Assembly (NCBI GenBank): GCA_029204225.1
Contig: CM055113.1
Coordinates: 29,121,252-29,185,251 of the forward strand
Direction of reading: 5' to 3'
DNA length: 64,000 nt
DNA from: Diphasiastrum complanatum
Taxonomy: Eukaryota > Streptophyta > Lycopodiopsida > Lycopodiales > Lycopodiaceae
Within the stretch, counting starts at the first letter, position 1. Each line of letters begins with the position of its first letter. Position numbers and translations under genes: made by a program. The notes below the pieces were generated by a model that worked only from the letters and a program-made list of their open reading frames with translations, did no database searches and was not told the origin of the DNA. Shown in pieces: positions 1-36,676 of this stretch.

Positions 1-559
1 TTTATCGACACTTCTGATAAGGAAAGTGACTTTATTGATGTAAATACTGATTCTCTATTGTATTCTTTTATTGGCCAAAATACATCTGCTGATGAATCCA
101 ACCCTATAGAGGAGTCTAAATGTCTATTCAATTTGCCTATATATTATATTAATGACGATGTATATTTTACTACTGCTAATTTATGTAAAATTTTTTACTA
201 TTGCAAAGACGAGGTTCTATGTTTATTATCCGCCACAATTTCCAAATTCTCCGACTTTGTAGATTTTGAAACAGATGACCTTGTTGCTGGTATTGATTTT
301 GATTATGAGGAGGGACTTATGACCGGTGAAGAATGCCTGACTAAGACTTTATTAAATATAGCTGAGGATGGGCGAGGCAGACCATCCGATGAAGAATTCA
401 CGGCATTTCAATCCCAGATGGGCTTCCCTCATCCATCATTATTGCATTTCACTGATGATTCCACTTCAGTACATGGTCATTATATTGATCATCCTGATCC
501 GGTTGCTGCTGATGGTGAAGAATGTGTAAGTGTTTAAACTTCCTTGCATTAGAATGTTT

Positions 560-1214
560 TGTGAAAAATACAGATCCTAAGTGGATCTAAACTCCAAGAT
601 CATTGGCTTGAATGCTTGCACTCCAAACTACATAAGCTAGGAATTGGCAACACATTCTATGCTACCTAGAATGCAAAGAACTTGATCAAAAAGCATTTAT
701 CACAAATGGAAACTTCCATAAACATCAAGTGCGGCCCAAAATAGCATTATACAGTCCATAATACATCAGCCTACCACTTTTGGAAAGCACCTAAGATCAT
801 ACACAATAGCTTGAAGACAATACACACAACAATGCTCTCAATGGAGGAAGAAACAATGACAATGATCTATTGATCTCAATGAAGCATACAAAAGGTTTCT
901 CCAACCTGTTCTCCACGACTTCCCTACTATTTATGGATGAGGAAGATGACTCTCTCTCCTCTCTCTAGAAGGTACTTGACCCTAGATATTCCCTATATAG
1001 GAAAAATAGCTAAAAATGGCTTATATGACCAAAATACATCAAAATGGTCTCATTTTGAAGGGTATGAAGTTTGACACTTCATCATACTGAAAAGATATAG
1101 TAAATAAAAACATTGTGGCCTGGTTCACACGTGTGAAACTCCAGAACCAAAACTATTTACAATTTTAGCCAATTTAGGCCTCAAACTAGCTAGGAAATGT
1201 TGACAATTTTCACA
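560..1214 (-). repeat. 3' LTR of the young copia element
   Basis: This 655-bp LTR is identical to the partner at 6,336-6,990 except at two positions. Because the element is on the - strand, this left copy is the 3' LTR. The pol stop codon (TCA on the + strand, 1,216-1,218) lies one base inside it, and the adjoining sequence read on the element strand is a short purine run (GAAGAGTGAG) that can serve as polypurine tract. Confidence 0.96.
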
Positions 1215-1215
1215 C

Positions 1216-4200
1216 TCACTCTTCAACATTGGATGCTAGTTTCAACATAGTCTTTGAGCACATTCCAAGATTAGATCTATGCATTAAATATAGGTCCTTT
1301 CCCAATGGTTTGGTGAAGATATCAGCCACACACTCCTTTGAAGAGACATGTTGAAGCTCCACCTCTTTGGCAATGACTTGATCTCTCACAAAATGGTGAG
1401 CAATCTCAATGTGCTTGCTCCTTGCATGAAAAACAGGATTGCTTGCCAAGCTTTGGGCTGAAAGGTTATCACAAAGTATGATTGGAGTCTTCTCTGGTTC
1501 CAGCAAGTGAAGATCCAATAACATCCTCTTGATCCAAAGAATCTCCTTGGTGCATGTTGTTAATGCCTTGTACTCGGCTTCGATGGAAGATAGAGAGATA
1601 GTTGGTTGCTTCTTTGATAGCCATGAGACCACTCCATCTCCAAGATAGATTGCAAAGGCACTTGTTGACTTCCTATCCATTTGATCACCTGCAAAATCTG
1701 AATCTGAAAATCCACAAAGGTTAGGTGTAGTACCTCCATACAAGATGCCAAAATCTCTAGATCCCGAGATGTATCTAAGTACTCTCTTTCCTAGCTTCCA
1801 ATGAGCCTCACTAGGATCTTGCATAAATTGACTTAGTTTACCAACCACAAAGCTTAGATCAGGTCTTGTGATGGTTAACCATATAAGAGATCCTATTAGC
1901 TTTCTATAGAGAGTAATGTCCTTGAAGGATCTTTCATTACTTCTTGTAGTTAGCTTTACATTTGATTCCATAGGAGTAGAAACAACTTTACAATCTTCCA
2001 TATGAAACCTTTTTAGAATAGAGTTAACATACTTTTCTTGACATATGAATGTAGATTTAGAAGTTCTAATAATCTCTATTCCTAAGATATAATGAAGTTT
2101 ACCAAGATCTTGAATTTCAAACTCTCTTTTGAGTGCCATCTTGATTTCATCTATATCTAGATTGTTACCACCACTTAAGATAATGTCATCAACATAGATC
2201 AAAAGTAAAGTGATATCATTTTCATTCAATCTAAAGTAGAGAGAATGATCATACTCACTCATAACAAAGTTTTGAGAAAGTAAGAAGGAATTGAGCTTAG
2301 CATACCAACTCCTTGGTGCTTGCTTTAGCCCATACAAACTCTTTTGGAGATAGCACACATGATTAGGCTCATCATGTGAAACATAGCCCTCGGGTTGCTC
2401 CATGTAAATATCTTCTTCAAGATCACCATTCAAGAAGGCATTAGTAACATCCATTTGCCACATATCCCAATCATAAAGAGTTGCAAGAGAGATTAGGATT
2501 CGAATAGTTACCATCTTTGCCACGGGTGCAAAGGTCTCATCATAGTCAATACCATATTCTTGAGCATACCCCTTTGCCACCAACCTTGCCTTGTACTTGT
2601 TGATTGATCCATCTTGATTTGTCTTGATCTTGAAGATCCACTTACAACCAATTGCCTTCTTGTCCTTTGGAAGCTTTACCAACCTCCATGTGTTGCTTTT
2701 GATGAGTGCTTGATGCTCATGATCCATGGCTTGGATCCATTCCTTCTTTTGAATTGCTTCACCTACACAAGTTGGTTCATCAAAAGAGGTAAGAAAAGCA
2801 AAGTTAGAGTTGTCCACCACTTGCTTTCCTTTTTCATCATAGGTTAGCCTTGATGGCTTAGCCCTTTGCCTTTGAGTCTTCCTTGAAGTTTGCTTTGGAG
2901 TGGCATCTCCATCTTCATCCAAGACATCTTGCACATCATGATGATTAGTAGGCACATCAACATCAACATCAACAACATTGGAAACATTCTCTTCATGAAA
3001 GATGACATCCCTACTTATGACAACTTTCTTTGTAGAAGGAATGTACACTTTGTAAGCCTTGCTTACTTCACTATAGCCAACAAACACACCCTTCTTTGAT
3101 GAAGGATCTTCTTTAGTTCTATCATCAAGTGTGATATTGACAAAACATGTACATCCAAAGATCCTACAATGCTTGACACTCGGCCTTCTACCATAAAGAA
3201 CCTCATGAGGAGTTTTACCATCCAAGGAAGCACTTGTCCATCTATTACATAGATAGTTAGCACATGCTAAAGCTTCCCCCCAAAAAGACTTAGCAAAATT
3301 AGCATGTAGTCTCATTGCCTTGGCACATTCACAAAGGGTTCTATTCTTCCTCTCGGCCACTCCATTCTGTTGTGGAGTCCTAGGACTAGACATCTCCCTC
3401 TTAATCCCATGTGCTATACAAAAGTCTTTGAACCTATTTGAGGTGTATTCCCCTCCATTATCAGATCTTAAGCATTTGATCTTTGTATTGAATTGGTTTT
3501 CCATTTCATTCTTGAACTTGACAAATGCAGCAAACACTTCATCCTTACTTTTAAGAAGATAGATCCAAGTATACCTACTAAAGTCATCAATGAAAGTTGC
3601 ATACATCTTTGCCCCACCATTGCTAGTTGTACTAGAAGAATGAATATCAGAATGCACAAGTTGAAAAGCTTCTTTAGATCTAGAAGTAGATCTAGAATAA
3701 GCAAGTCTATGAGATTTGGACAAGGCACAATGTTCACAAACACTATTGTTTGCAACAAGACTTTTAGGGAGACCAAGAACAAGTTCTTTCTTTGCCATTA
3801 CCTCCAAAGATTTGAAGTTGGGATGGCCCAACCTCTTGTGCCAAACTTCTTGGTTTGTCAATTGCTCCCTAGCCATACATCCTTCATGATTAGAGATCAC
3901 ACATGCATCAAGCTTGAAAAGTTTACCATGCCTCCTACCTTGAGCAATCAAGGATCCACATTTACTTATCAAACATGCATCTCCAATGAACTCCACATCA
4001 AGTCCTTTGTCAATCATTTGACTTACACTAAGCAAATTCTTAGTGATTGAAGGAATGTACAAAACATTTTCAAGATTTGCTTTCCTATTTGTTGAAAGGG
4101 AAATAGGAATAGTGCCTATGCCTTTGATGTCACATTGACCATCATTTGCAGTGTAGATGATGTTACCTTCTCCCTCATAAGACAATAAGGATGTAAAGTA

Positions 4201-5163
4201 TTCCTTATGTCTTGTCATGTGAGATGAGGCTCCACTATCAATCCACCAAGGATCATTATCATCTATGTTGGCTAACAAACTTGAAGTCATAACAAGTGAT
4301 TCACATGTGTTATGTTCTTCCTCATCTATTGTAAGATTTCCTTGCCTCTCTCCTTGCTCTCTTTTCTTCTTATAACATTCATTTGCAAAATGACCTTTTA
4401 TCCCACAATAAAAGCACTTGAACTTTGACTTATTGTTCTTAGTAGAAGAGGAAGAGGAAGAGTGATCATCATGATCAAAGTTACCACCTTTGGACCATTT
4501 CCCTTTGCCTTTACCTTTGCCCTTGAATTTGCCTTTTGTGAAGAAAGCCTCTTCACCTCCACCTTGCAAGGATGCACCATCAAGCTTTGATTGCAACCTA
4601 TGTTCTTCAGCCAATAAGATTTCTTGCAAGTCAACCACACTTGGCAAGACTCTTTGAATGGCAAAACTTTGCACAAGGTTAGCATGTTCATTTAGCAAAC
4701 CATTCAACATAACTTGGACTATTTCACCATCTTTTATGTTCTCATCAATGCATGCTAAATCATCACTTAGGGACTTAACTCTCAAGATAAATGCATGAGC
4801 ACTTTCACCCTCTCTTTGCCTACTAGAAAATATTTGTCTCCTTAGGGTCAATACCCTAGATGTGGACTTTGATTCAAAGAGCTTCTTTAAGGCATTCCAT
4901 GCCTCACTTGCACTTTGACACTTTCCAACTTCCTTGAGAAGTTCATTTGTAACATTCATTTTAATGATATGAAGAGCCCTTTTGGCCTTCTTATCAAACC
5001 TTTGTTGCTCTTGAAGTGTGAGAGGTCTCTCTTCAATTTCTGCAACTATGTCCATGAGTTCATTCAACTCAAGTAAGGACTCCATCCTCACTTTCCAAGT
5101 AGAGTAGTTTGATGAACTCAACCTTTCACTAGACTCTAGCATGATCCCACCATTGGAAGCCAT
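1216..5163 (-). CDS. Copia gag-pol polyprotein, 1,315 aa, uninterrupted
   Basis: This single ORF encodes all copia proteins in the usual order. Gag (UBN2 type) covers about residues 1-200. A basic GK repeat precedes a CCHC zinc knuckle (C250, C253, H258, C263). The aspartic protease motif DSGASSHMT begins near 309. The integrase HHCC zinc region lies near 442-480 and its catalytic residues are D506 (HSD), D568 (RSDNGGEY) and E604 (GVAERKN). The reverse transcriptase carries YVDD at 990-993. RNase H follows, with SDSDFAGD and SSIEAEYKAL near 1,150-1,195. The length fits full-length plant copia polyproteins. The start MASNGG opens the gag domain and the stop abuts the 3' LTR. No frameshift or stop was found, so the element may still be mobile. 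Confidence 0.97.
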   Translation of the reverse strand: MASNGGIMLESSERLSSSNYSTWKVRMESLLELNELMDIVAEIEERPLTLQEQQRFDKKAKRALHIIKMNVTNELLKEVGKCQSASEAWNALKKLFESKSTSRVLTLRRQIFSSRQREGESAHAFILRVKSLSDDLACIDENIKDGEIVQVMLNGLLNEHANLVQSFAIQRVLPSVVDLQEILLAEEHRLQSKLDGASLQGGGEEAFFTKGKFKGKGKGKGKWSKGGNFDHDDHSSSSSSTKNNKSKFKCFYCGIKGHFANECYKKKREQGERQGNLTIDEEEHNTCESLVMTSSLLANIDDNDPWWIDSGASSHMTRHKEYFTSLLSYEGEGNIIYTANDGQCDIKGIGTIPISLSTNRKANLENVLYIPSITKNLLSVSQMIDKGLDVEFIGDACLISKCGSLIAQGRRHGKLFKLDACVISNHEGCMAREQLTNQEVWHKRLGHPNFKSLEVMAKKELVLGLPKSLVANNSVCEHCALSKSHRLAYSRSTSRSKEAFQLVHSDIHSSSTTSNGGAKMYATFIDDFSRYTWIYLLKSKDEVFAAFVKFKNEMENQFNTKIKCLRSDNGGEYTSNRFKDFCIAHGIKREMSSPRTPQQNGVAERKNRTLCECAKAMRLHANFAKSFWGEALACANYLCNRWTSASLDGKTPHEVLYGRRPSVKHCRIFGCTCFVNITLDDRTKEDPSSKKGVFVGYSEVSKAYKVYIPSTKKVVISRDVIFHEENVSNVVDVDVDVPTNHHDVQDVLDEDGDATPKQTSRKTQRQRAKPSRLTYDEKGKQVVDNSNFAFLTSFDEPTCVGEAIQKKEWIQAMDHEHQALIKSNTWRLVKLPKDKKAIGCKWIFKIKTNQDGSINKYKARLVAKGYAQEYGIDYDETFAPVAKMVTIRILISLATLYDWDMWQMDVTNAFLNGDLEEDIYMEQPEGYVSHDEPNHVCYLQKSLYGLKQAPRSWYAKLNSFLLSQNFVMSEYDHSLYFRLNENDITLLLIYVDDIILSGGNNLDIDEIKMALKREFEIQDLGKLHYILGIEIIRTSKSTFICQEKYVNSILKRFHMEDCKVVSTPMESNVKLTTRSNERSFKDITLYRKLIGSLIWLTITRPDLSFVVGKLSQFMQDPSEAHWKLGKRVLRYISGSRDFGILYGGTTPNLCGFSDSDFAGDQMDRKSTSAFAIYLGDGVVSWLSKKQPTISLSSIEAEYKALTTCTKEILWIKRMLLDLHLLEPEKTPIILCDNLSAQSLASNPVFHARSKHIEIAHHFVRDQVIAKEVELQHVSSKECVADIFTKPLGKDLYLMHRSNLGMCSKTMLKLASNVEE

Positions 5164-6323
5164 GATTCTAATGTTTCTTCAACTTTTAGGTTCTGTCCTA
5201 AAGCACTTAGCACTCACTTTTCTCTCAACAAATGATAGATAAAGAGATCTATGAAGATTTAGGACCCTAAAACACTTCTATCTTGAACCTAGATGGTTTC
5301 CAAGCATAGAAAGGAAGATTGAAACACATGCAACACTTTGCACACACTAAGAATGGATTACAAAATCAAACCAACCTGAACACACTCTTGCTTAAGCTCT
5401 CAAACTTTCCAGCAAGTGACCAAATCAAGTTATGGTGTGAAGAGTTACTTGCATTCTTAGAAAATACCCAAAACTAGGATGCCAAGATTACCTAGTAATG
5501 AACAAACTTGATCAACATATGATCAACACACTAAGATATTGATTCAACCTGTAAAACCACATGTAAACCACACTTCTAAAAGTTTATAAACTCCAGCAAG
5601 TGATAAATACAAGATTTAGAGGTGAATGAATGAGCACACTTAGTGAATCACAAGACTAGCTTCACTATCTTGTCAAATCTTGGTGTTTAGATGTAGATCT
5701 AAGATCACTTCACATGAGAATGTTCCTCAACCTGTTAAGAACCTGAAAACACACTTGCATAATGGTTAACACCTTCCAGCAAATGCTCCAATCAAATTAC
5801 ATAAGGAGAGTTACTTACATGCTCAACAAAGTACACCAAAATTTATGCCAAAATTGATGACAATCTTTACAATATGCTCTTCACAATGGAGCTTACAATA
5901 TGTTCACCCAAAAAAGGGGATCTTTCATCCAAATGGGAGCTTTGCTCAGCCTTTAGGAGAATTACAACTCACTCAAAAGAGCATTTGTCATCCACTTAAG
6001 GAGAAGTTTCATCCACTTAAGGAGAGTGTTCATCCAAGAATGGAGATTGTCAACAATAGGATTGAAAAGAACATTGTTAGTATTGAATATGCACAAGCCT
6101 CACAATCACAAATGATTAGGTGTTATGATCTGATCCAAAATAGTTTCTTTTCAGCCTATGATCTTCAATAGACCTGAAATATGCTTTTGATCCACAAGTT
6201 CAACTCACAAAACAAAGGTTAGTAAGATTTGATCAACAAAGCAATGCAAAATCATGCTAGAACTTGATCAAACATCCAAATATCACCAAAAATGGAATAC
6301 TTACTGTAAATAGAAGCCAACCA
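5164..6323 (-). other. Copia 5' leader with imperfect tandem repeats
   Basis: About 1.16 kb lies between the primer-binding site and the gag start. It contains three imperfect repeats, each with CAACCTG (near 5,372, 5,545 and 5,728) followed by a CCAGCAA(G/A)TG stretch, with a period of roughly 173-183 bp. A shorter tandem repeat of about 21 bp built on CATCCACTTAAGGAGA lies near 5,988-6,040. No convincing ORF is present; small + strand ORFs are antisense and look fortuitous. Packaging or translation signals would be expected here but none can be assigned. Confidence 0.7.
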
Positions 6324-6335
6324 GCTCTGATACCA
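6324..6335 (-). other. Primer-binding site (initiator Met tRNA type)
   Basis: Read on the element strand the sequence is TGGTATCAGAGC, directly after the 5' LTR end. It is complementary to the 3' end of plant initiator methionine tRNA, the usual primer of copia elements. Confidence 0.95.
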
Positions 6336-6990
6336 TGTGAAAAATACAGATCCTAAGTGGATCTAAACTCCAAGATCATTGGCTTGAATGCTTGCACTCC
6401 AAACTACATAAGCTAGGAATTGGCAACACATTCTATGCTACCTAGAATGCAAAGAACTTGATCAAAAAGCATTTATCACAAATGGAAACTTCCATAAACA
6501 TCAAGTGCGGCCCAAAATAGCATTATACAGTCCATAATACATCAGCCTACCACTTTTGGAAAGCACCTAAGATCATACACAATAGCTTGAAGACAATACA
6601 CACAACAATGCTCTCAATGGAGGAAGAAACAATGACAATGATCTATTGATCTCAATGAAGCATACAAAAGGTTTCTCCAACCTGTTCTCCACGACTTCCC
6701 TACTATTTATGGATGAGGAAGATGACTCTCTCTCCTCTCTCTAGAAGGTACTTGACCCTAGATATTCCCTATATAGGAAAAATAGCTAAAAATGGCTTAT
6801 ATGACCAAAATACATCAAAATGGTCTCATTTTGAAGGGTATGAAGTTTGACACTTCATCATACTGAAAAAATACAGTAAATAAAAACATTGTGGCCTGGT
6901 TCACACGTGTGAAACTCCAGAACCAAAACTATTTACAATTTTAGCCAATTTAGGCCTCAAACTAGCTAGGAAATGTTGACAATTTTCACA
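6336..6990 (-). repeat. 5' LTR of the young copia element
   Basis: This 655-bp LTR starts TGTGAAAAAT and ends TTTTCACA, and supplies the element promoter. A TATA-like CCCTATATAGG stretch lies near 6,765-6,776, the expected place for transcription start on either reading. It is followed by the target duplication TGTTT at 6,991. Confidence 0.95.
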
Positions 6991-7674
6991 TGTTTTTAAT
7001 CACTGAATGTATTAAATTTTTTTTAATCATTTAATGTATTAGAATGTTTTTAATTACTGAATGTTTTATTGCTAACATATTTCCTATTGCAGGATGCTCT
7101 CATAATTGATGATTTTGCTGCGAGACCAGGTGGTTTCAGACAACATGCATTGTCGTTCCAGAGGGATAGTGGACTTGGCCACTATCTTAGACATCTCCTG
7201 AAGAATGAGATCTGCATTGCTCAATCCAAGCTAAGCCCAGTCGGGGAGAGTCTTATAATGGCAGTTAAAGCTTTATCATTTTACCTAGGAGGACATAAAT
7301 TTGTAAAGACAAATAAGATCATTTTTGTCAAAAGATCTTATGTTTTGAACATTTTAGGCTTTACTGATGGGAATGATCCTTTAAGGAGCTCCCATTATTC
7401 ATTGTATTCCACTTATATTGAGCTTAGTGGAAATAAGGATAATGCACATCTATTAGATGCATACGCTAGCAGAGAATTTCTTCATGACAATACTGCCATA
7501 GAATCTGACACAAGATCTGATGATGAATAGTTGACACTTTGTGTTTTGGTATAATACAATCAATACATTTACATTGAGTATTTCTCCTTCCTTGTTCAAT
7601 GAATTTGCAAAGAAATTCTGAACATGTCATGATTTGATGACAATGATGATCTTCTACTCAACAATCATCTAACT

Positions 7675-10100
7675 TTCTCTTCCTGTATGAACTTGCATGC
7701 TTTTCTAAACTTGTTGTATTGTGTGGACTTTGTTATATGTCGAATCTGAACTCTGCGGTAGAACCATTGAAACAATTGACAAATGTAGTTTCATTTTTCA
7801 TTGGTTCCTCCATGTTGTGTATTTCAATGAAATGTTGCTCGTGCTTGCCAATGTGACTTCTCCATCCCTTGTGATGACCATACACTCAAGCTTCCATATG
7901 TATTTGCAAAAAATGTTGTATGATCTCTTAGGATGTGCTGCATACGTCAAAATCATAATGTTATCCTTATGTTTGGATCTAAATATATATGAAAATTTGA
8001 AAGCATTTTGAAAATTTTATACTAACCATGTAATGAGTGATGTGATCTTCTCCCCATGCTTTTGATACTGCATTAACAAACTCAACACAAGTCCTTTGGA
8101 CAGCCTTCTTATCAATATCAGAGTATTTTTCTTTTCTTAAAATAGCAATCATACTATCAAGCTTTTTCCATACATCAACTTTTAGTACTTTGGTTTTGTC
8201 GTCTTTCTCGAAGTCTTGAGTGGCAGCAATAATATTTGTCTAGACTGAGTGTTGAATATTAGAAGCCTTACCAGTATGATTTGATAGGAAACGACGTGCT
8301 TTTTCTCCTCCTATGCTTGGCTTAGTTGGCATGTTCCCATTCTTTCCTGAAAGCTTTTCATCTTTTTATATTTTGACATGTCCTTTATGGAGTCCTGCTT
8401 TTGATAAAACATCTTCTAATCGAGAGATAGCTTCCTTTGCTAATGATGCTGGCTTAGTATTCCAAGCAAAAACTACATGAAGATAAATGATCTTTTCTAT
8501 TAATCTAACTTTTGCATGAAGAGTGCAAACATGCACATTTTTTAAGGGAATAGACAACACAGGCTTCCAGTTTGGATCTGCATATTCTCTAGTAATTCAT
8601 GTACTCCTAGTTACATCTTTTGCCATTTTCATGCAATACAAACAAGGGGGTTTTGATGTAGCACCATGAGAGACATTATACATACATTTCAATGTTTTCA
8701 AATCACCTGCTAAGTGCCATTCAACATTGAAGTCTCCAACTCCTGGAACATTGAGAAGTCCTCCATCCATATGGTCTTGGATGATCCTAGGATAAGATGT
8801 CCTTGAGAATATCCATGATAATATATCATGATCCTCTTTTAGCACCTGTCTACAGAATTAATCAGACTTAGTTTACAATGTATTGATACTATTCAATGAA
8901 TGTAATGTAATAATGAGGCTAGTTACCTGAAACGCTGCCAACCACCATATATCATTTTCCAGCTGGACACTGAATCTGAAATCTTCTTGGTTCTCTGTTT
9001 GTGATAGAGCATCATTCATGAGAGTTATACTAACCCTCTCCATCTTCTGCCCTTTCAAAATTTCTGACTCATCTAACTTAAGTACTATGATTATTTTGCC
9101 ATTCACCTTTTCATTGGTTATATCATAGAATGTGACGATGTATCTCAGCAAGTAATTTAGATCAACAAATAAATTGTTTGATGCATTATAGAATGTCGAT
9201 CTTCCATCATTTCCATACACCTCCTCAATATGCAATGGAGTTCCAGTGATCATATGCATACCTATGTTTAATGTATCCCTCTCTTTCTTCAAGTGATATG
9301 TCCTAGGGATTGGGACTTCTCTAATTTGAACTTGCTTAAAAGCTTCTCTAATTAGTTTAAATATTGGTGCATATTCTTCCCTGCTAATACCTGCAAAATC
9401 ATAAGCACCCTGAACTATAGTCTTATCTAAAATTTTTTGAATGTCCACCATCAAAGACTCTGCTATTTTACACTATACATTTGAAATCCTATTGTTCGTC
9501 ATCATACGCTCAGTGGATTTGCAAGTCAATATTGTGCCCAATGACATTCCTACTGAAGCATTGTCTTTAATATTCCGAGGAGCTACTAATGCAGATTTGC
9601 AAAAAAAACAGATAGTTAACAGAATATCACCATAGCTGAAATTAAATCCAAATGTCATTGAAAAACTTACAAAAATCAGAATATGCTTATTTGAATGCAC
9701 GGATCCTTCTATTTTGATAACCTCTTTTTGAAAGCATTTGAATATCCTTGCAACTTTGTCACTTTCGCTTCATCCATGTAAGTAAATGAGTTATTGAAGA
9801 GAATGTGGGATGTGTCAAAGTGCTTGGATCTTGTGGATATAATGTTCCATCTATCTACAAATCCAAGTTTTTTTTTCCTTCTACCTTGTAACGAGAACGA
9901 TCCTTAGCAGATATACGAATTCCTTTGCCTCCTCTTCTCTGCAAAGGTGCCAAATCAATAGGAATATCCACATGTAGATGATACAATGTCATCATCAAAA
10001 AAATAGTAGAGTAATCAGTTGCATCGAAGTACTGTGACTAGATTCTATGAAGGAAAGCAAAGTACTCATCTTTGATTATATTATATACTATGTACGATCA
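7675..10100 (-). pseudogene. DDE-type (RNase H fold) transposase pseudogene, copy 1, multi-exon
   Basis: Exons read on the - strand. A first block (about 10,100-9,700) contains LWIDGTLYPQDPSTLTHP (W and I vary). A block at 9,634-8,927 contains IIIVLKLDESEILKG, whose Asp fits the first catalytic residue. A block at 8,845-8,027 contains WHLAGDLKTLKCMY (second Asp) and a CLYC cysteine pair. The last block, 7,937-7,675, contains SVWSSQGMEKSHWQAR (Glu as third residue). The introns 8,846-8,926 and 7,938-8,026 have GT-AG ends and keep frame. Stops disable it: TAG in the second block, TGA near 8,597, TAG near 8,240 and TGAs in the last exon, plus a frameshift near 9,770. The family is inferred from motif spacing only. 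It converges on gene B. Confidence 0.6.
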
Positions 10101-10449
10101 ATCCAATCTCCATGCTTGTATGCTTGATTCAAATTTGGAAATGCCGCTCATTTTTTCATTCCAATAGGTAGTTGGCGCTCATATTTCCATTCCAAAGTGA
10201 TGATGGCGTTCATAATTGGAGATGGCACCCATATTTCCATTCTTGTGGAAGGAATGCATATGTAAACATTTTGCAATTTTTTCTGATTCGAATTTGGGGA
10301 TGGCAGTCATATTCTAGATCTAGTGAAAATATTGCTCTTTTCGTAACCAATGGAGGGAATATTTTTGAAATTAGTCAAGTTATATTGCAAGCTGTTAACA
10401 GTTCTTAATTGTGACTATAGACACTCGTCATAAGGATAAACAAAAAGCA

Positions 10450-11046
10450 GTAAGGTAGGATATGCAGAGTGAAGATTTAGGACCAAGCACGAGCCACATG
10501 TCCAACATTGATGTGGGTCGGTCATATGGCTACGATTACGTAGGAGGCACTGCACCAATTACAGTAGAATTAGGGGCCCAACTCTTCTCATGAATTGGTT
10601 GATATCGTAGCTGATCAGATTGTTGATTTTATTAGCAATCATAAGTTACAGTTTACAGTGGGATAATTGATCCAGATTGTGCCTTATTTGGTGGATTTAA
10701 AATGCTCTAAGTTACATGGATATCAACAACCTACAAGATTACCTTTAGTGCCGGTCAATACTATTGTACAATCAACAGAACATAATATTGTTCCGACATT
10801 AAAAATCAAAATCCAAGATCTTAACATTGTGGGTGTACAGATTTATGGTGGGGCAAGTGTGAAGATCATTTTTTGAGAAAACATATCGTAAACTAAAAAG
10901 TATGCATTTGCAAAAAAAAAAAAGTCTACTCGTCATACGAATGGCTAATCATACACATGATTCTCCAGTAGGAGAAATTTGTAAGGTTCTGATGTGCATT
11001 AAAGGATTAAAGTTTTTATTGACTTTTGTAGTTATGAGATATGACT
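10450..11046 (+). pseudogene. Ty3/gypsy gag-protease relic, copy 1
   Basis: Translation of 10,667-10,876 gives an open stretch ending TLKIKIQDLNIVGVQIYGGA. This matches the gypsy aspartic protease pattern in which a DGGS-type motif follows a 'LDWNVDGVLID'-like strand; the catalytic Asp is replaced by Tyr. Downstream frames read RMANHTHDSPVGEI and GLKFLLTFVVM, typical of the next protease strands. Stops and frameshifts are frequent. The homology stops at about 11,046, exactly where similarity between the two large repeat copies ends. Confidence 0.55.
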
Positions 11047-11238
11047 GAAGACATGACAAGGAGTACATCAACTTGCCTACTCAAAGCAGAAGTTTGGAAG
11101 AAGCTTGACAACATGGTAAAATATTTAATAAAATATAAGTTTTCAAATACTGATGTGCAAATGATACTGAAAGCAACCAGCGAATTTGTTGATGCAGTTT
11201 AGAGTGCATGGGGAGCAGATCACATAACACATTATATG
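11047..11238 (+). pseudogene. Divergent transposase exon fragment
   Basis: Translation gives AEVWKKLDNM, then about 25 residues, then SAWGADHITHYM. The younger transposase has DVWKKLDSM and KAWGEDHITHYM in the same spacing. The exon ends ATG before donor GTAAGA at 11,239, the same phase and position as the donor after HYM in the younger gene. One in-frame TAG precedes SAWG. After a possible acceptor (TTTTTTAG near 11,306) a few residues (YILRE) resemble the start of the younger terminal exon (HILRD) before gene B-like sequence begins. It is on the opposite strand to the nearby young transposase, so it belongs to an older insertion. Confidence 0.65.
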
Positions 11239-29973: not shown

Positions 29974-30308
29974 TCAAAATATTGAAAAATCTATGTAATG
30001 TTGTGAGTATGGGTCCTAAAAATGCCAAAGATGAATTGAGCTCTTTTGGCTTAGTATAAACCCATCTTAGAATAAAATATTCAAGGTACGTAGAAGTAGA
30101 AACTCGAGCTACCGTAGGAAACTTCTATTTTAGTAGGCTTCACTTAGGCCTAACATAATATAGCAAGGACACCTAATTTTTAATGCAGCCAAAAAATCTA
30201 AATCCAATATAACATCTATTTTTTCAAGCCCTTCAAAATTCATCTTTTTAAGCTTAGAATGAGTGAAAAGAGGGCCCGATATTTCCTTGGGCCCCCATTT
30301 TGAAAAAA
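29974..30308. other. Unassigned interval between element C and the GC-rich block
   Basis: I see no clear gene. A - strand reading (30,250-30,130) MNFEGLEKIDVILDLDFLAA could be a displaced continuation of the acidic tail of the H3-like gene, because both contain NFEG at the edges of the GC-rich block; this is weak. Confidence 0.3.
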
Positions 30309-30466
30309 AATAAGGGGGAGGGGGATGGGAGTACACCTCCCCCCCCGTACCCTTGTACCCCCCCCCCCCCCCCCCGGTCTCTCTCTCTCTCCCTCGGGGC
30401 CAGCTGGCCCGTCAGGCCCCACCCACCCCTCCGACCCTCCGGGCCGCTGGCCCTCGAAGTTACTCA
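30309..30466. repeat. GC-rich low-complexity block with long C run
   Basis: About 160 bp in an AT-rich region contain two C homopolymers (the longer from about 30,357), a CT repeat (TCTCTCTCTCTC) and CGGGGCCAGCTGGCCCGT-like GC palindromes. It interrupts the acidic - strand ORF downstream of the H3-like gene, giving glycine-rich nonsense translation. It looks like inserted or expanded simple sequence. Confidence 0.7.
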
Positions 30467-30886
30467 GCACCAGCAACTCATTGGATGAACCTCTTGCAAT
30501 GTCATATTGCAAGAGTGTCAGCCCAGACTCTATCACAGGATCATTGATAGAAGTCCGTCTGTCTTTGAGATCCAAGCAATCTAGAACTCCAAAATTAATA
30601 CTAAAATCAAGTTCATCTAGTCTAAAACAAAAAGGAGTACCAATTGTATTTATGGCATCAGATATGTCTTTCTCAAATTTAAGATAATCATCTGAATCTA
30701 TATATGTATAAAAATTTGGAGGAAGAGGAGGAGGTGGATGTGTAGTATCTACAATAATTAAAGGGGTATCCAAAACAAATGTAGCTATATTTACAACATT
30801 ATCAACAACAACGTTATCTACAATTGATTTTGGGTCAGGTTTCATAGAATCTGTGGTGTCTACCCTCTTTACTTTCTTTGCTCTTG
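30467..30886 (-). pseudogene. C-terminal extension ORF of the H3-like gene
   Basis: The frame opens upstream of MKPDPKSIVDN (ATG at 30,845) and overlaps the H3-like stop codon in a different frame. Read back to the G5 run at 30,886-30,890 (CCCCC on the coding strand) it gives RAKKVKRVDTTDSMKPDP, a natural continuation of the Lys-rich H3-like C-terminus. A one-base change in the homopolymer would join the two. The product is acidic, with a PPPPLPP stretch and no recognised domain. It could instead be a separate overlapping ORF. Confidence 0.5.
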
Positions 30887-31359
30887 GGGGCTGTCTGCTT
30901 CCTAGGATGCTTCGTAGGAAGATCAGTCCTATCTAGAGGAGTTGGTCTGGGAGCAGCAGGCTGAGATACGTGTAACCTGCAAAACCTCTCCCTCATTCTC
31001 ATCAAGAGCTGAAAATCCTTGGGAATTATGGTAACTCTCTTGGAATGGATGGCAAGCAAAAATGAATCTTCAAAAAAAAAACTAAGGTAATCTTCAGCAG
31101 CCTCCTGAAGGCACTGAAGAGCACTGGGTGTAAATCTGACCAGCTTTTCGAGATCATTTCTTCTTATGTTTCGGACAGCATGGTAGAATGGAGCTCTTGG
31201 GATCAACAGAGCAGTTGATCTCTGATACTTGCGTATCTCAGAGAGCCACCTGTTGCAGTTGCGCATTCTAGGTCTAGCAGGAGGTGAAATGGCAACCGCA
31301 GGGGCTGAGGATGAGCCAGGAGAGAAGAAGTCCCTCCTTGTCTGCTTTCTCCTATCCAT
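30835..31359 (-). CDS. Histone H3-like protein, CENH3-like features, with C-terminal extension
   Basis: The 174-residue product has a histone fold of H3 type at about residues 38-127: EIRKYQRSTALLIPRAPF (alpha-N and start of alpha-1), LVRFTPSALQCLQEAAEDYL (alpha-2) and IHSKRVTIIPKDFQL (loop 2 and alpha-3). Loop 1 is one residue longer than in canonical H3 and EAAEDYL resembles plant centromeric H3. The N-terminal tail (37 residues, MDRRKQTRRD start) lacks the canonical Lys9 and Lys27 contexts. Unlike normal H3, about 45 basic residues follow the core. No intron is seen. It is divergent from gene B across an 0.8-kb repeat-rich spacer. It may be a nuclear histone variant, a mobile-element cargo or a decaying duplicate. 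Confidence 0.85.
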   Translation of the reverse strand: MDRRKQTRRDFFSPGSSSAPAVAISPPARPRMRNCNRWLSEIRKYQRSTALLIPRAPFYHAVRNIRRNDLEKLVRFTPSALQCLQEAAEDYLSFFFEDSFLLAIHSKRVTIIPKDFQLLMRMRERFCRLHVSQPAAPRPTPLDRTDLPTKHPRKQTAPKSKESKEGRHHRFYET

Positions 31360-32186
31360 GGATGTGTACTATGCAATAGCGGACTTGTGCATGACGGCGA
31401 GGATGAGCAGGGAAGGATGATAAAGATCTCGCAGAGGACCGATATGTACAGACAGAATGTACAGTATGTCGGACCTGTGCGAGTTGAATATATGAAAGAG
31501 CGATTAGTTTTGAAGAAAGACGCACAAGTGCGATACGGGGGGACACGTAGGCAGATGTATCGGACCTGTGCGCATGGAAGGCGGTAGGTGGAATTTCGAT
31601 TGTGAAGGACGCGCACAAGTGCGATATGCAGAGCGAAAAAAAAAAAGTGAAAAAAATTCATCGAAGTTTGTGATTTTATATCGCGGTAGGAAATAATGTC
31701 CTATCACACGTGTGGGAGTTGTACGGACAAATGAGAGAGCAACATGTGTCACCCTATCACTTTACACATGTGGGATTTGTACGACCAAATGCGAGAGCGA
31801 CACGTGTTGTCGAGCAAACGAATGAACACATGACACATGTCCAGGTGTCATTTCACATGTGTCCAGGTGTCACCTCACACGTGCCAGTGCCTGTAGTCGA
31901 ATCAAAAGTAGACACATGTCCATTGACCATTGACCACACATGCAAAAAGTTAGTATAAATGTCACAAAAACCAATTAATTTTTTTACCTTTTTCATTATC
32001 GAAATTTGCAGCATATCGCCCTTGTGTGCACGCATTGCTTTCCGTTTGCTTTCAACGACACCTATTTGCACACAAGTACGATATTCGATATCTGCCTGCC
32101 ATACATATCCCTCTTGTGCGCCATCTTGATAGTTAGTTTTGTTTCTGTGCTCCCTCGCGCACAAGTGTGATATTCACTTTACTTCC
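31360..32186. promoter_or_regulatory. Divergent intergenic region with four inverted-repeat units and G-box-like repeats
   Basis: Nine copies of a motif close to GCGCACAAGTGCGATATGC alternate in orientation: reverse at 31,377, 31,465, 31,556, 32,011 and 32,104; forward at 31,521, 31,611, 32,067 and 32,157. Eight of them form four reverse/forward pairs with internal spacers of about 34-38 bp, and paired units are about 91 bp apart in two clusters. Between the clusters, CACGTG- and CACATG-containing repeats occur (an imperfect 50-bp tandem at 31,704-31,812; ACATGTCCAGGTGTCA and a variant near 31,835-31,875). This could be a bidirectional promoter or transposon subterminal repeats. Confidence 0.7.
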
Positions 32187-33757
32187 ATGGCCTCTTCCTC
32201 AAGATCCTCATGAGATTCAGGCTTGAGTTCATTTCTTAGTGAATTTGGGATTACTGAAAACCTAGACTACTTCCACAGCCTATTCAGGCCATATTCACAT
32301 ATTTTCAGGACTGCACGACCAAATTCTGACGTTTTTTATGAACATTATGTTAGATTTAGAGATATACTTAGTAAGCATGTTTTCTCCATAGGTTCACTCC
32401 AGTACATGCATTATACTAATCTTGTTCATTTCTTCCCAGCTTTCAGACATAGACTGGATAGAATGTTTACCAAATTGTTTGATCTTTTCAGAAGCAGTTC
32501 ATTGTGTCCTTATTGCAACAAGAAATGTCGATCGGTTGAATATCAGAGTGGTTTCATACTTTTCCTGTTAGTTCAAATCCCAGATGATGAGGAAGTTTCT
32601 GTTGGTGACTCTCCTTTTGCATCATCCTCTGTTCAGTCAGCTATTAAAGATATCAGTCACTTTTTTATCGACACTTCTGATAAGGAAAGTGACTTTATTG
32701 ATGTAAATACTGATTCTCTATTGTATTCTTTTATTGGCCAAAATACATCTGCTGATGAATCCAACCCTATAGAGGAGTCTAAATGTCTATTCAATTTGCC
32801 TATATATTATATTAATGACGATGTATATTTTACTACTACTGATTTATGTAAAATTTTTTACTATTGCAAAGACGAGGTTCTATGTTTATTATCCGCCACA
32901 ATTTCCAAATTCTCCGACTTTGTAGATTTTGAAACAGATGACCTTGTTGCTGGTATTGATTTTGATGATGAGGAGGGACTTATGACCGGTGAAGAATGCC
33001 TGACTAAGACTTTATTAAATATAGCTGAGGATGGGCGAGGCAGACCATCCGATGAAGAATTCACGGCATTTCAATCCCAGATGGGCTTCCCTCATCCATC
33101 ATTATTGCATTTCACTGATGATTCCACTTCAGTACATGGTCATTATATTGATCATCCTGATCCGGTTGCTGCTGATGGTGAAGAATGTGTAAGTGTTTAA
33201 ACTTCCTTGCATTAGAATGTTTTTAATCACTGAATGTATTAAAAAAATTTTAATCATTTAATGTATTAGAATGTTTTTAATTACTGAATGTTTTATTGCT
33301 AACATATTTCCTATTGCAGGATGCTCTCATAATAGATGATTTTGCTGCGAGACCAGGTGGTTTCAGACAACATGCATTGTCGTTCCAGAGGGATAGTGGA
33401 CTTGACCACTATCTTAGGCATCTCCTGAAGAATGAGATCTGCATTGCTCATTCCAAGCTAAGCCCAGTCGGGGAGAGTCTTATAATGGCAGTTAAAGCTT
33501 TATCATTTTACCTAGGAGGACATAAATTTGTAAAGACAAATAAGATCATTTTTGTCAAAAGATCTTATGTTTTGAACATTTTAGGCTTTACTGATGGGAA
33601 TGAGACTTTAAGGAGCTCCCATTATTCATTGTATTCCACTTATATTGAGCTTAGTGGAAATAAGGATAATGCACATCTATTAGATGCATACGCTAGCAGA
33701 GAATTTCTTCATGACAATACTGCCATAGAATCTGACACAAGATCTGATGATGAATAG
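32187..33757 (+). pseudogene. Gene B copy 2: two-exon gene of unknown function
   Basis: Exon 1 (32,187-33,188) starts MASSSRSS, has a TGA at codon 9 (32,211), then continues DSGLSSFLSEFG. Exon 2 is 33,320-33,757. The 131-bp intron has donor GTAAGT and acceptor CTATTGCAG, phase 0. Full length is about 479 codons. Features: aromatic N-terminal region (NLDYFHSLFRPY), a cysteine cluster CPYCNKKC near residue 107, a long acidic middle, and an exon 2 domain beginning ALIIDDFAARPG. No membrane segment is clear. I do not recognise the family. The early TGA fits a CGA to TGA change; without it the frame is open throughout, and in-frame starts after it could still be used. Confidence 0.75.
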
Positions 33758-33901
33758 TTGACACTTTGTGTTTTGGTATAATACAATCAATACATTTACA
33801 TTGAGTATTTCTCCTTCCTTGTTCAATGAATTTGCAAAGAAATTCTGAACATGTCATGATTTGATGACAATGATGATCTTCTACTCAACAATCATCTAAC
33901 T

Positions 33902-36330
33902 TTCTCTTCCTGTATGAACTTGCATGCTTTTCTAAACTTGTTGTATTGTGTGGACTTTGTTATATGTCGAATCTGAACTCTGCGGTAGAACCATTGAAAC
34001 AATTGACAAATGTAGTTTCATTTTTCATTGGTTCCTCCATGTTGTGTATTTCAATGAAATGTTGCTCGTGCTTGCCAATGTGACTTCTCCATCCCTTGTG
34101 ATGACCATACACTCAAGCTTCCATATGTATTTGCAAAAAATGTTGTATGATCTCTTAGGATGTGCTGCATACGTCAAAATCATAATGTTATCCTTATGTT
34201 TGGATCTAAATATATATGAAAATTTGAAAGCATTTTGAAAATTTTATACTAACCATGTAATGAGTGATGTGATCTTCTCCCCATGCTTTTGATACTGCAT
34301 TAACAAACTCAACACAAGTCCTTTGGATAGCCTTCTTATCAATATCAGAGTATTTTTCTTTTCTTAAAATAGAAATCATACTATCAAGCTTTTTCCATAC
34401 ATCAACTTTTAGTACTTTGGTTTTGTCGTCTTTCTCGAAGTCTTGAGTGGCAGCAATAATATTTGTCTAGACTGAGTGTTGAATATTAGAAGCCTTACCA
34501 GTATGATTTGATAGGAAACGACGTGCTTTTTCTCCTCCTATGCTTGGCTTAGTTGGCATGTTCCCATTCTTTCCTGAAAGCTTTTCATCTTTTTATATTT
34601 TGACATGTCCTTTATGGAGTCCTGCTTTTGATAAAACATCTTCTAATCGAGAGATAGCTTCCTTTGCTAATGATGCTGGCTTAGTATTCCAAGCAAAAAC
34701 TACATGAAGATAAATGATCTTTTCTATTAATCTAACTTTTGCATGAAGAGTGCAAACATGCACATTTTTTAAGGGGATAGACAACACAGGCTTCCAGTTT
34801 GGATCTGCATATTCTCTAGTAATTCATGTACTCCTAGTTACATCTTTTGCCATTTTCATGCAATACAAACAAGGGGGTTTTGATGTAGCACCATGAGAGA
34901 CATTCTACATACATTTCAATGTTTTCAAATCACCTGCTAAGTGCCATTCAACATTGAAGTCTCCAACTCCTGGAACATTGAGAAGTCCTCCATCCATATG
35001 GTCTTGGATGATCCTAGGATAAGATGTCCTTGAGAATATCCATGATAATATATCATGATCCTCTTTTAGCACCTGTCTACAGAATTAATCAGACTTAGTT
35101 TACAATGTATTGATACTATTCAATGAATGTAATGTAATAATGAGGCTAGTTACCTGAAACGCTGCCAACCACCATATATCATTTTCCAGCTGGACACTGA
35201 ATCTGAAATCTTCTTGGTTCTCTGTTTGTGATAGAGCATCATTCATGAGAGTTATACTAACCCTCTCCATCTTCTGCCCTTTCAAAATTTCTGACTCATC
35301 TAACTTAAGTACTATGATTATTTTGCCATTCACCTTTTCATTGGTTATATCATAGAATGTGACGATGTATCTCAGCAAGTAATTTAGATCAACAAATAAA
35401 TTGTTTGATGCATTATAGAATGTCGATCTTCCATCATTTCCATACACCTCCTCAATATGAAATGGAGTTCCAGTGATCATATGCATACCTATGTTTAATG
35501 TATCCCTCTCTTTCTTCAAGTGATATGTCCTAGGGATTGGGACTTCTCTAATTTGAACTTGCTTAAAAGCTTCTCTAATTAGTTTAAATATTGGTGCATA
35601 TGCTTCCCTGCTAATACCTGCAAAATCATAAGCACCCTGAACTATAGTCTTATCTAAAATTTTTTGAATGTCCACCATCAAAGACTCTGCTATTTTACAC
35701 TATACATTTGAAATCCTATTGTTCGTCATCATACGCTCAGTGGATTTGCAAGTCAATATTGTGCCCAATGACATTCCTACTGAAGCATTGTCTTTAATAT
35801 TCCGAGGAGCTACTAATGCAGATTTGCAAAAAAAACAGATAGTTAACAGAATATCACCATAGCTGAAATTAAATCCAAATGTCATTGAAAAACTTACAAA
35901 AATCAGAATATGCTTACTTGAATGCACAGATCCTTCTATTTTGATAACCTCTTTTTGAAAGCATTTGAATATCCTTGCAACTTTGTCACTTTCGCTTCAT
36001 CCATGTAAGTAAATGAGTTATTGAAGAGAATGTGGGATGTGTCAAAGTGCTTGGATCTTGTGGATATAATGTTCCATCTATCCACAAATCCAAGTTTTTT
36101 TTTCCTTCTACCTTGTAACGAGAACGATCCTTAGCAGATATACGAATTCCTTTGCCTCCTCTTCTCTGCAAAGGTGCCAAATCAATAGGAATATCCACAT
36201 GTAGATGATACAATGTCATCATCAAAAAAATAGTAGAGTAATCAGTTGCATCGAAGTACTGTGACTAGATTCTATGAAGCAAAGCAAAGTACTCATCTTT
36301 GATTATATTATATACTATGTACGATCAATC
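33902..36330 (-). pseudogene. DDE-type transposase pseudogene, copy 2
   Basis: This is the same gene as at 7,675-10,100, displaced by 26,227 bp. By homology the exon blocks are about 36,330-35,930, 35,861-35,154, 35,072-34,254 and 34,164-33,902 (read downwards). The same motifs are present: WIDGTLYPQDPSTLTHP, KLDESEILKGQ (Asp), LAGDLKTLKCMY (Asp), CLYC and SQGMEKSHWQAR (Glu). Stops shared with copy 1 include the TAG after NNRISNV, the TGA after VTRST, and those of the last exon. A possible donor (GTAAGC) near 35,920 is intact here but mutated in copy 1. It converges on gene B, with about 145 bp between stop codons. Confidence 0.6.
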
Positions 36331-36676
36331 CAATCTCCATGCTTGTATGCTTGATTCAAATTTGGAAATGCCGCTCATTTTTTCATTCCAATAGGTAGTT
36401 GGCACTCATATTTCCATTGCAAAGTGATGATGGCGTTCATAATTGGAGATGGCACCCATATTTCCATTTTTGTGGAAGGAATGCATATGTAAACATTTTG
36501 CGATTTTTCCTGATTCGAATTTGGGGATGGCAGTCATATTCTAGATCTAGTGCAAATATTGCTCTTTTCGTAACCAATGGAGGGAATATTTTTGAAATTA
36601 GTCAAGTTATATTGCAAGCTGTTAACAGTTCTTAATTGTGACTATAGACACTCGTCATAAGGATAAACAAAAAGCA

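Follow-up and report, generated by a model that had tools for sequence, protein, structure and literature searches.

Analysis of a 64,000-nucleotide stretch of DNA from Diphasiastrum complanatum (referred to here as the window) revealed a histone H3-like gene that is close to certain to belong to a transposon. In a reference copy (c8), the element is a discrete unit of ∼8.7 kb with 35-bp terminal inverted repeats, which opens with the 35 bases CATTAGAGGAGTTCTCAATATCAAAAAGACCCTTT and closes with their reverse complement. Four genes lie along it, namely, in this order, A (+, transposase-like), B (−), C (+, H3-like), and D (−). Intact copies of gene C encode one protein of 328–338 amino acids, comprised of a short H3-like tail, a full H3 fold, a linker, and a conserved C-terminal domain; two further open copies are shorter, at 261 and 274 residues.

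Structure of the Element and Its Copies in the Window

Fifteen copies and their flanks, fetched from the list of H3-like matches with a preference for open frames, were compared with the window. Both element ends are present in two of them (c8 and c9), one end in seven, and neither in six. No target-site duplication is evident at c8, and at c9 it amounts to at most 2 bp.

The window holds a truncated copy on the reverse strand at 30457–36652, aligned by blastn with c8 from element position 5820 down to 147, in which both ends and gene D have been lost; the piece at 35796–36161 is missing from c8. The transposase-like gene A was located by tblastn at 33895–35822 (−), with exons at about 35822–35154, 35072–34254, and 34158–33895. 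Gene B, at 32187–33757 (+), consists of two exons, the first running from the ATG at 32187 to about 33188 and the second from 33320 to 33757, and in this copy it contains an in-frame stop at 32211–32213.

A second partial copy of the element occupies positions 1–10425 (−) and is split by a Copia element. The two copies are 99% identical where they overlap, with the similarity of the second stopping inside the spacer between genes B and C, and the H3-like gene that might accompany it is absent from the 4 kb to the left of the window. The inserted Copia retrotransposon, at 560–6990, has 655-bp LTRs that are 99.7% identical and an open frame of 1315 codons at 1216–5163 (−). Adjoining the end of the second partial copy, at 11044–11238 (+), is a piece 51% identical to gene A, so that a divergent relative of the element is also present in the window.

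Linkage of the H3-like Gene to the Transposon

A search of the 1.745-Gb genome (5176 contigs) with the H3-like query gave matches of 80–100% at all 150 of the scored places, which were the best 150 of 7249 candidates (a first-look number and not a copy count); the match of 100% is the window itself. All 150 scored places likewise matched when the C-terminal domain (best 150 of 4295 candidates) or a transposase exon (best 150 of 10158 candidates) was used as the query.

The 150 transposase places were then set against the 300 H3 and C-terminal domain places. At 37 of the 150, an H3 or C-terminal match lies 0–5 kb downstream on the same strand, in 32 cases at a distance of 3.5–3.7 or 4.1–4.3 kb, and none of the 150 has such a match in the 5 kb upstream on that strand or within 5 kb on the opposite one. 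When the transposase places were randomly shifted in 200 trials, the mean was 0.07 and the maximum 1. The value of 37 is a lower bound, the lists holding the best matches only. In addition, the H3-like gene lies inside element sequence in 12 of 12 small loci; at the window copy (L001), element sequence ends soon after the break in the gene.

These results bear out the proposal of the sequence-only reading that an H3 domain had been captured by a mobile element, a proposal made with no mention of a transposase or of terminal repeats and now strongly supported by copy number, by shared ends with inverted repeats, and by genome-wide linkage to the transposase. The gene is not the single copy without gene B beside it that was expected of an ordinary gene. 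Gene B is indeed divergent from the H3-like gene, with a repeat-rich spacer between them, and the suggested check on whether other copies always lie next to gene B showed this arrangement in 12 of 16 copies (the 15 fetched and the window) but not in c5, d1, d2, and d4, which start in or near this spacer or have a deletion there. One further locus, L040, is a derivative of the element in which a deletion has placed part of a gene A exon beside the H3-like gene's start. That the gene instead represents an ordinary dispersed family of host H3 variants, placed near transposons by chance, has a true histone fold in its favor but is very improbable and was rejected, given the high copy number, a transposase linkage specific in strand and distance, and the shared element ends.

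The Transposase-like Gene

Gene A is one of a family that includes many metagenomic proteins and for which Pfam gave no transposase match. It matched 29 database proteins among 6424 candidates (best E = 4e-118), and the metagenomic relatives P0053–P0081 are 32–45% identical to it over 51–90% of the query. These relatives are like gene A in D404 and E405 (28 of 28 rows of the alignment) and in D501 (29 of 29 rows), and the alignment also includes CxxC and HxxxTLH stretches. Residues of this kind would be in keeping with a transposase of the RNase H-like type that contains a zinc-binding insert. No Pfam family matched gene A at E values up to 10, its relatives P0053 and P0058 gave only weak coiled-coil-type Pfam matches below the cut-off, no solved transposase was matched, and no relative was found in viral contigs scanned with the transposase alignment.

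The 35-bp inverted repeats at the shared ends are a trait of class II elements with terminal inverted repeats. Mutator elements, including VANDAL, were ruled out by the lack of a Mutator-type transposase match in Pfam scans of gene A and its relatives, and KDZ transposons, for whose transposase Pfam holds models, by the lack of a KDZ match in the same scans. Helitrons and Helentrons were ruled out by the terminal inverted repeats; the gene pieces scanned also gave no Rep or helicase match.

The H3-like Gene in the Window

The window copy of the H3-like gene contains an open reading frame of 174 codons at 30835–31359 (−), present in the ORF list and recognized by Pfam. It matches the Pfam Histone family (PF00125) over residues 21–123 with E = 1.2e-25 and 90.5 bits, compared with 98.2 bits for an open copy (cut-off 26.4), and it matches solved H3 chains with a best E of 8.7e-23. 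The histone H3 fold spans residues 36–123 by Pfam and PDB alignments, which corresponds to 30991–31254 (−) as computed from the ORF. The open reading frame first described from the sequence is thereby confirmed, as is the similarity to H3 in a profile search, whose absence had been named as the observation that would remove the claim.

When the intact protein was compared with the window by tblastn, residues 1–159 were found in one frame and residues 144–297 in another, in agreement with the one-base frame change into a C-terminal extension that had been noticed earlier. Of the conserved C-terminal domain only the start is present, in this other frame at 30457–30713 (−; tblastn, and blastn to c8), and the gene is broken at 30457, before the end of the protein. 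A block with long C and G runs, at 30296–30456, lies right at this broken end. The frame change is damage to the window copy, since open copies encode the same protein in a single frame of 328–338 codons; a reading of it as a genuine feature of the gene was therefore rejected. The change itself had been correctly seen from the window, though not its absence from open copies.

The Element-encoded H3 Protein

The element protein has a complete H3 fold, and in an open copy the core shares 54% identity with that of a canonical host H3 (L039). The start of the tail can be aligned with that of H3 (M-x-R-x-K-Q-T), and equivalents of the residues that we take to be H113, R116, and D123 are kept. As anticipated from the window alone, loop 1 has one residue more than that of L039 and the tail, in the window ORF as in the alignment with host H3, is divergent. 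The protein further differs from H3 and CENH3 in being transposon-borne and encoded at high copy number, in its shortened tail, and in the ∼200 residues that follow α3.

The tail also differs in its lysines. A single lysine is found within the first 37 residues in 11 of 13 open copies (c2, c3, and c6 among the 11 being near duplicates), at the K4-like position of the sequence M-D-R-R-K-Q-T; the other two copies have none and two, respectively. In the tail of host H3, 8 of the first 46 residues are lysines. Equivalents of the tail sites presumably numbered K9, K14, K18, K23, K27, and K36 are lacking in the element protein.

Judged by its Ka/Ks (given below), the C-terminal extension is a conserved domain. 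It gave no Pfam family above its cut-off, and no relatives were found for it or for the proteins of genes B and D, so that the roles suggested below for these parts are guesses. The 34 database matches to the whole protein cover 25–48% of it, and all those inspected or aligned match through the histone part. Two apparent relatives by score, P0022 and P0023, are tandem H3-H3 fusions and were dropped. A metagenomic protein of 391 residues, P0040, can be aligned with the element H3 from its first residue past the end of α3, with 34% identity across 177 residues. Its loop 1 is longer, and it does not match the C-terminal domain significantly; a similar element elsewhere may be its source.

Motifs in the Spacer between Genes B and C

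The divergent spacer at 31360–32186 contains nine copies of GCACAAGTGCGATAT in two clusters, at 31376–31627 and 32013–32173, which lie near both gene starts. The copies alternate in orientation, and intervals of about 53 and 38 bp recur between them. Allowing up to three mismatches on both strands, shuffled sequence gave a mean of 0.06 copies and a maximum of 1 (200 shuffles). A second motif, ACACGTGTCGCTC, occurs twice in the window spacer, compared with 0.03 times by shuffling. A related 12-base form of the first motif is found in 11 of 12 copies examined and is missing in d4, where the spacer is absent. The motifs look like candidate sites for a shared regulator or a transposition protein.

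Proposed Function of the Element H3

We think that the protein of gene C is best accounted for as a self-encoded anti-silencing histone that would oppose silencing of the H3K9/K27 type, a reading to which we give a probability of about 0.4 and which we place first on the strength of the tail, the shared regulatory spacer, and the analogy with VANC. According to a report on VANDAL transposons (PMC5735166), VANC proteins bind short clustered motifs in the element's own non-coding DNA and undo silencing. The present element resembles VANDAL, as described there, in being a DNA transposon that has other genes in addition to the transposase and short motifs densely placed in its non-coding DNA (PMC5735166). 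VANDAL elements differ in having no histone, and the present element in having no Mutator-type transposase match; moreover, the VANC21 motifs are described as arrays of one orientation, whereas those of the present element alternate (PMC5735166).

In the proposed mechanism, the gene C protein would still form H3-type nucleosomes with host H4, and its C-terminal domain or the gene B protein could bring it to the element by way of the motif clusters in the spacer. Because the tail has no K9 or K27 site and keeps a K4-like one, such nucleosomes might resist H3K9/K27-type silencing, and the promoter of the element would be kept open.

Second in our ranking, and rather unlikely, is a role in integration, where the element H3 would enter chromatin of a particular kind, such as that of centromeres or of newly replicated DNA, and its C-terminal domain would tether the transposition complex and so steer insertion. 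A histone fused to a conserved domain would make a natural tether, and the longer loop 1 and divergent tail are CENH3-like features. Copies also cluster locally, as at five places within 21.5–21.9 Mb of contig C23, although such clusters may be segmental duplications. The overall spread of the copies argues against this role: of 134 of the best 150 places (small contigs and a few others being omitted), the 113 with known contig extent cover all ten deciles of relative position. Insertion is consequently not confined to one zone per chromosome, and a limitation of that kind is unsupported.

Other H3-like Families and the Origin of the Element H3

Capture of a centromeric H3, with gene C derived from host CENH3 and its product competing with or imitating CENH3, is unlikely and stands behind the integration role. 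The longer loop 1 and divergent tail relative to host H3 are traits of CENH3, and the stretches LIPRAPF and AAEDY are as in plant CENH3 in the alignment. A gene with one or a few host copies would be expected of CENH3, but the 150 scored matches at 80–100% lie on many contigs. Element H3-like proteins formed one clade with support of 100 in two trees and joined the metagenomic P0040 with support of 68, while their grouping with a provisional set of plant CENH3 sequences had support of only 47 and 37.2/23. The captured gene may thus have been either a canonical H3 or a CENH3.

Nor was a host CENH3 recognized with two queries among the best 150 matches of each. One CENH3 query gave 13 places in a single top score class, along with numerous other H3-like places; the one place of that class that was inspected is L039, a canonical H3. 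Among the matches listed for both queries, the places proved to be canonical H3, intron-containing H3, and H3-like element places only. L047–L049, on contig C20, are host H3 variants taken as intron-containing genes because their last exon appears to start in loop 1.

Eight short stretches were inspected, namely L039, L040, a second H3-like family (L041, L042, L043, L045, and L046), and a third (L044). The second family (WLQDIRSYQ...LARRLRRERN) is multi-copy and has proline-rich or serine/threonine-rich stretches before the fold. The third, L044, has a frame of 527 codons with a canonical-looking start, MARTKQT; all 150 scored places matched this query, many at 75–89% and another group near 56–62%, the latter suggesting further H3-like families beyond the three. 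The genome thus holds at least two more divergent H3-like families besides that of the element, with 44–49% core identity between the three and a complete fold in all of them.

Copy Condition and Selection

The remaining explanation, that an H3 gene was caught by chance and is of no use to the element, we regard as about as improbable as capture of CENH3. Transposons frequently capture host genes, and many copies of the present element are dead; by hand count, stops interrupt the match in 98 of the 150 scored H3-like copies. Set against this, the match is free of stops in the other 52, and 26 of the 150 combine a match without stops with an open frame of at least 326 codons (both hand counts). 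The complete fold has also been kept in at least three divergent H3-like families.

Among nine open copies (36 pairs), the H3 core had a median Ka/Ks of 0.16 and the tail one of 0.42; among eight copies (28 pairs), the linker had 0.61 and the C-terminal domain 0.33, c4 having been left out of the linker, C-terminal, and whole-protein rows. Pooled pN/pS over 14 copies, counted after c3 and c6 (near duplicates of c2) had been dropped, came to 0.19–0.20 in the H3 core and 0.33 in the C-terminal domain. The same copies gave 0.45/0.77 for two gene A exons, 0.55/0.36 for gene B, and 0.49/0.61 for gene D. The core value is biased, as the copies had been picked with an H3 query, and it was withdrawn as proof of selection. 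Four copies picked by the C-terminal domain gave a pN/pS of 1.34 in the core, where stops occur, and of 0.26 in the C-terminal domain, and this behavior of the core is what a useless passenger would lead one to expect. We rely instead on the figure of 0.33 obtained for the C-terminal domain among the H3-picked copies, in the choice of which this domain played no part; set beside 0.36–0.77 for genes A, B, and D, it argues against a passenger.

Implications

Histone sequences within a mobile element have a precedent in Culex, where one report (PMC4067079) describes a rolling-circle Helentron carrying H4 and H15 gene fragments in eight copies with stops, frame shifts, and indels. Those are fragments (PMC4067079), whereas the element described here has terminal inverted repeats and its H3-like genes are open. 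No report of a transposon encoding an intact core histone or H3 was found in a literature search that mostly covered sources outside subscription journals, and the word histone occurs 0 times in the main text of a 2026 review on how plant transposons capture genes (PMC13317346).

More broadly, it is possible rather than probable that an entire class of DNA transposons comes with a histone H3 of its own. The class would include no fewer than three deep families in this genome and might have relatives in further eukaryotes. Elements of this class would package or mark their own DNA with a histone that host enzymes cannot methylate at K9 or K27, so that the parasite would carry its own chromatin identity.

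Escape of transposons from silencing by means of motif-binding proteins is known. If the gene C protein enters nucleosomes, as the anti-silencing reading supposes, the parasite would be acting on the basic unit of chromatin itself, and natural H3 variants lacking those sites could be used to test how host and transposon contend over H3 marks. The element is a jumping gene with its own version of a DNA-packaging protein, perhaps used to stay active or to choose a landing site.
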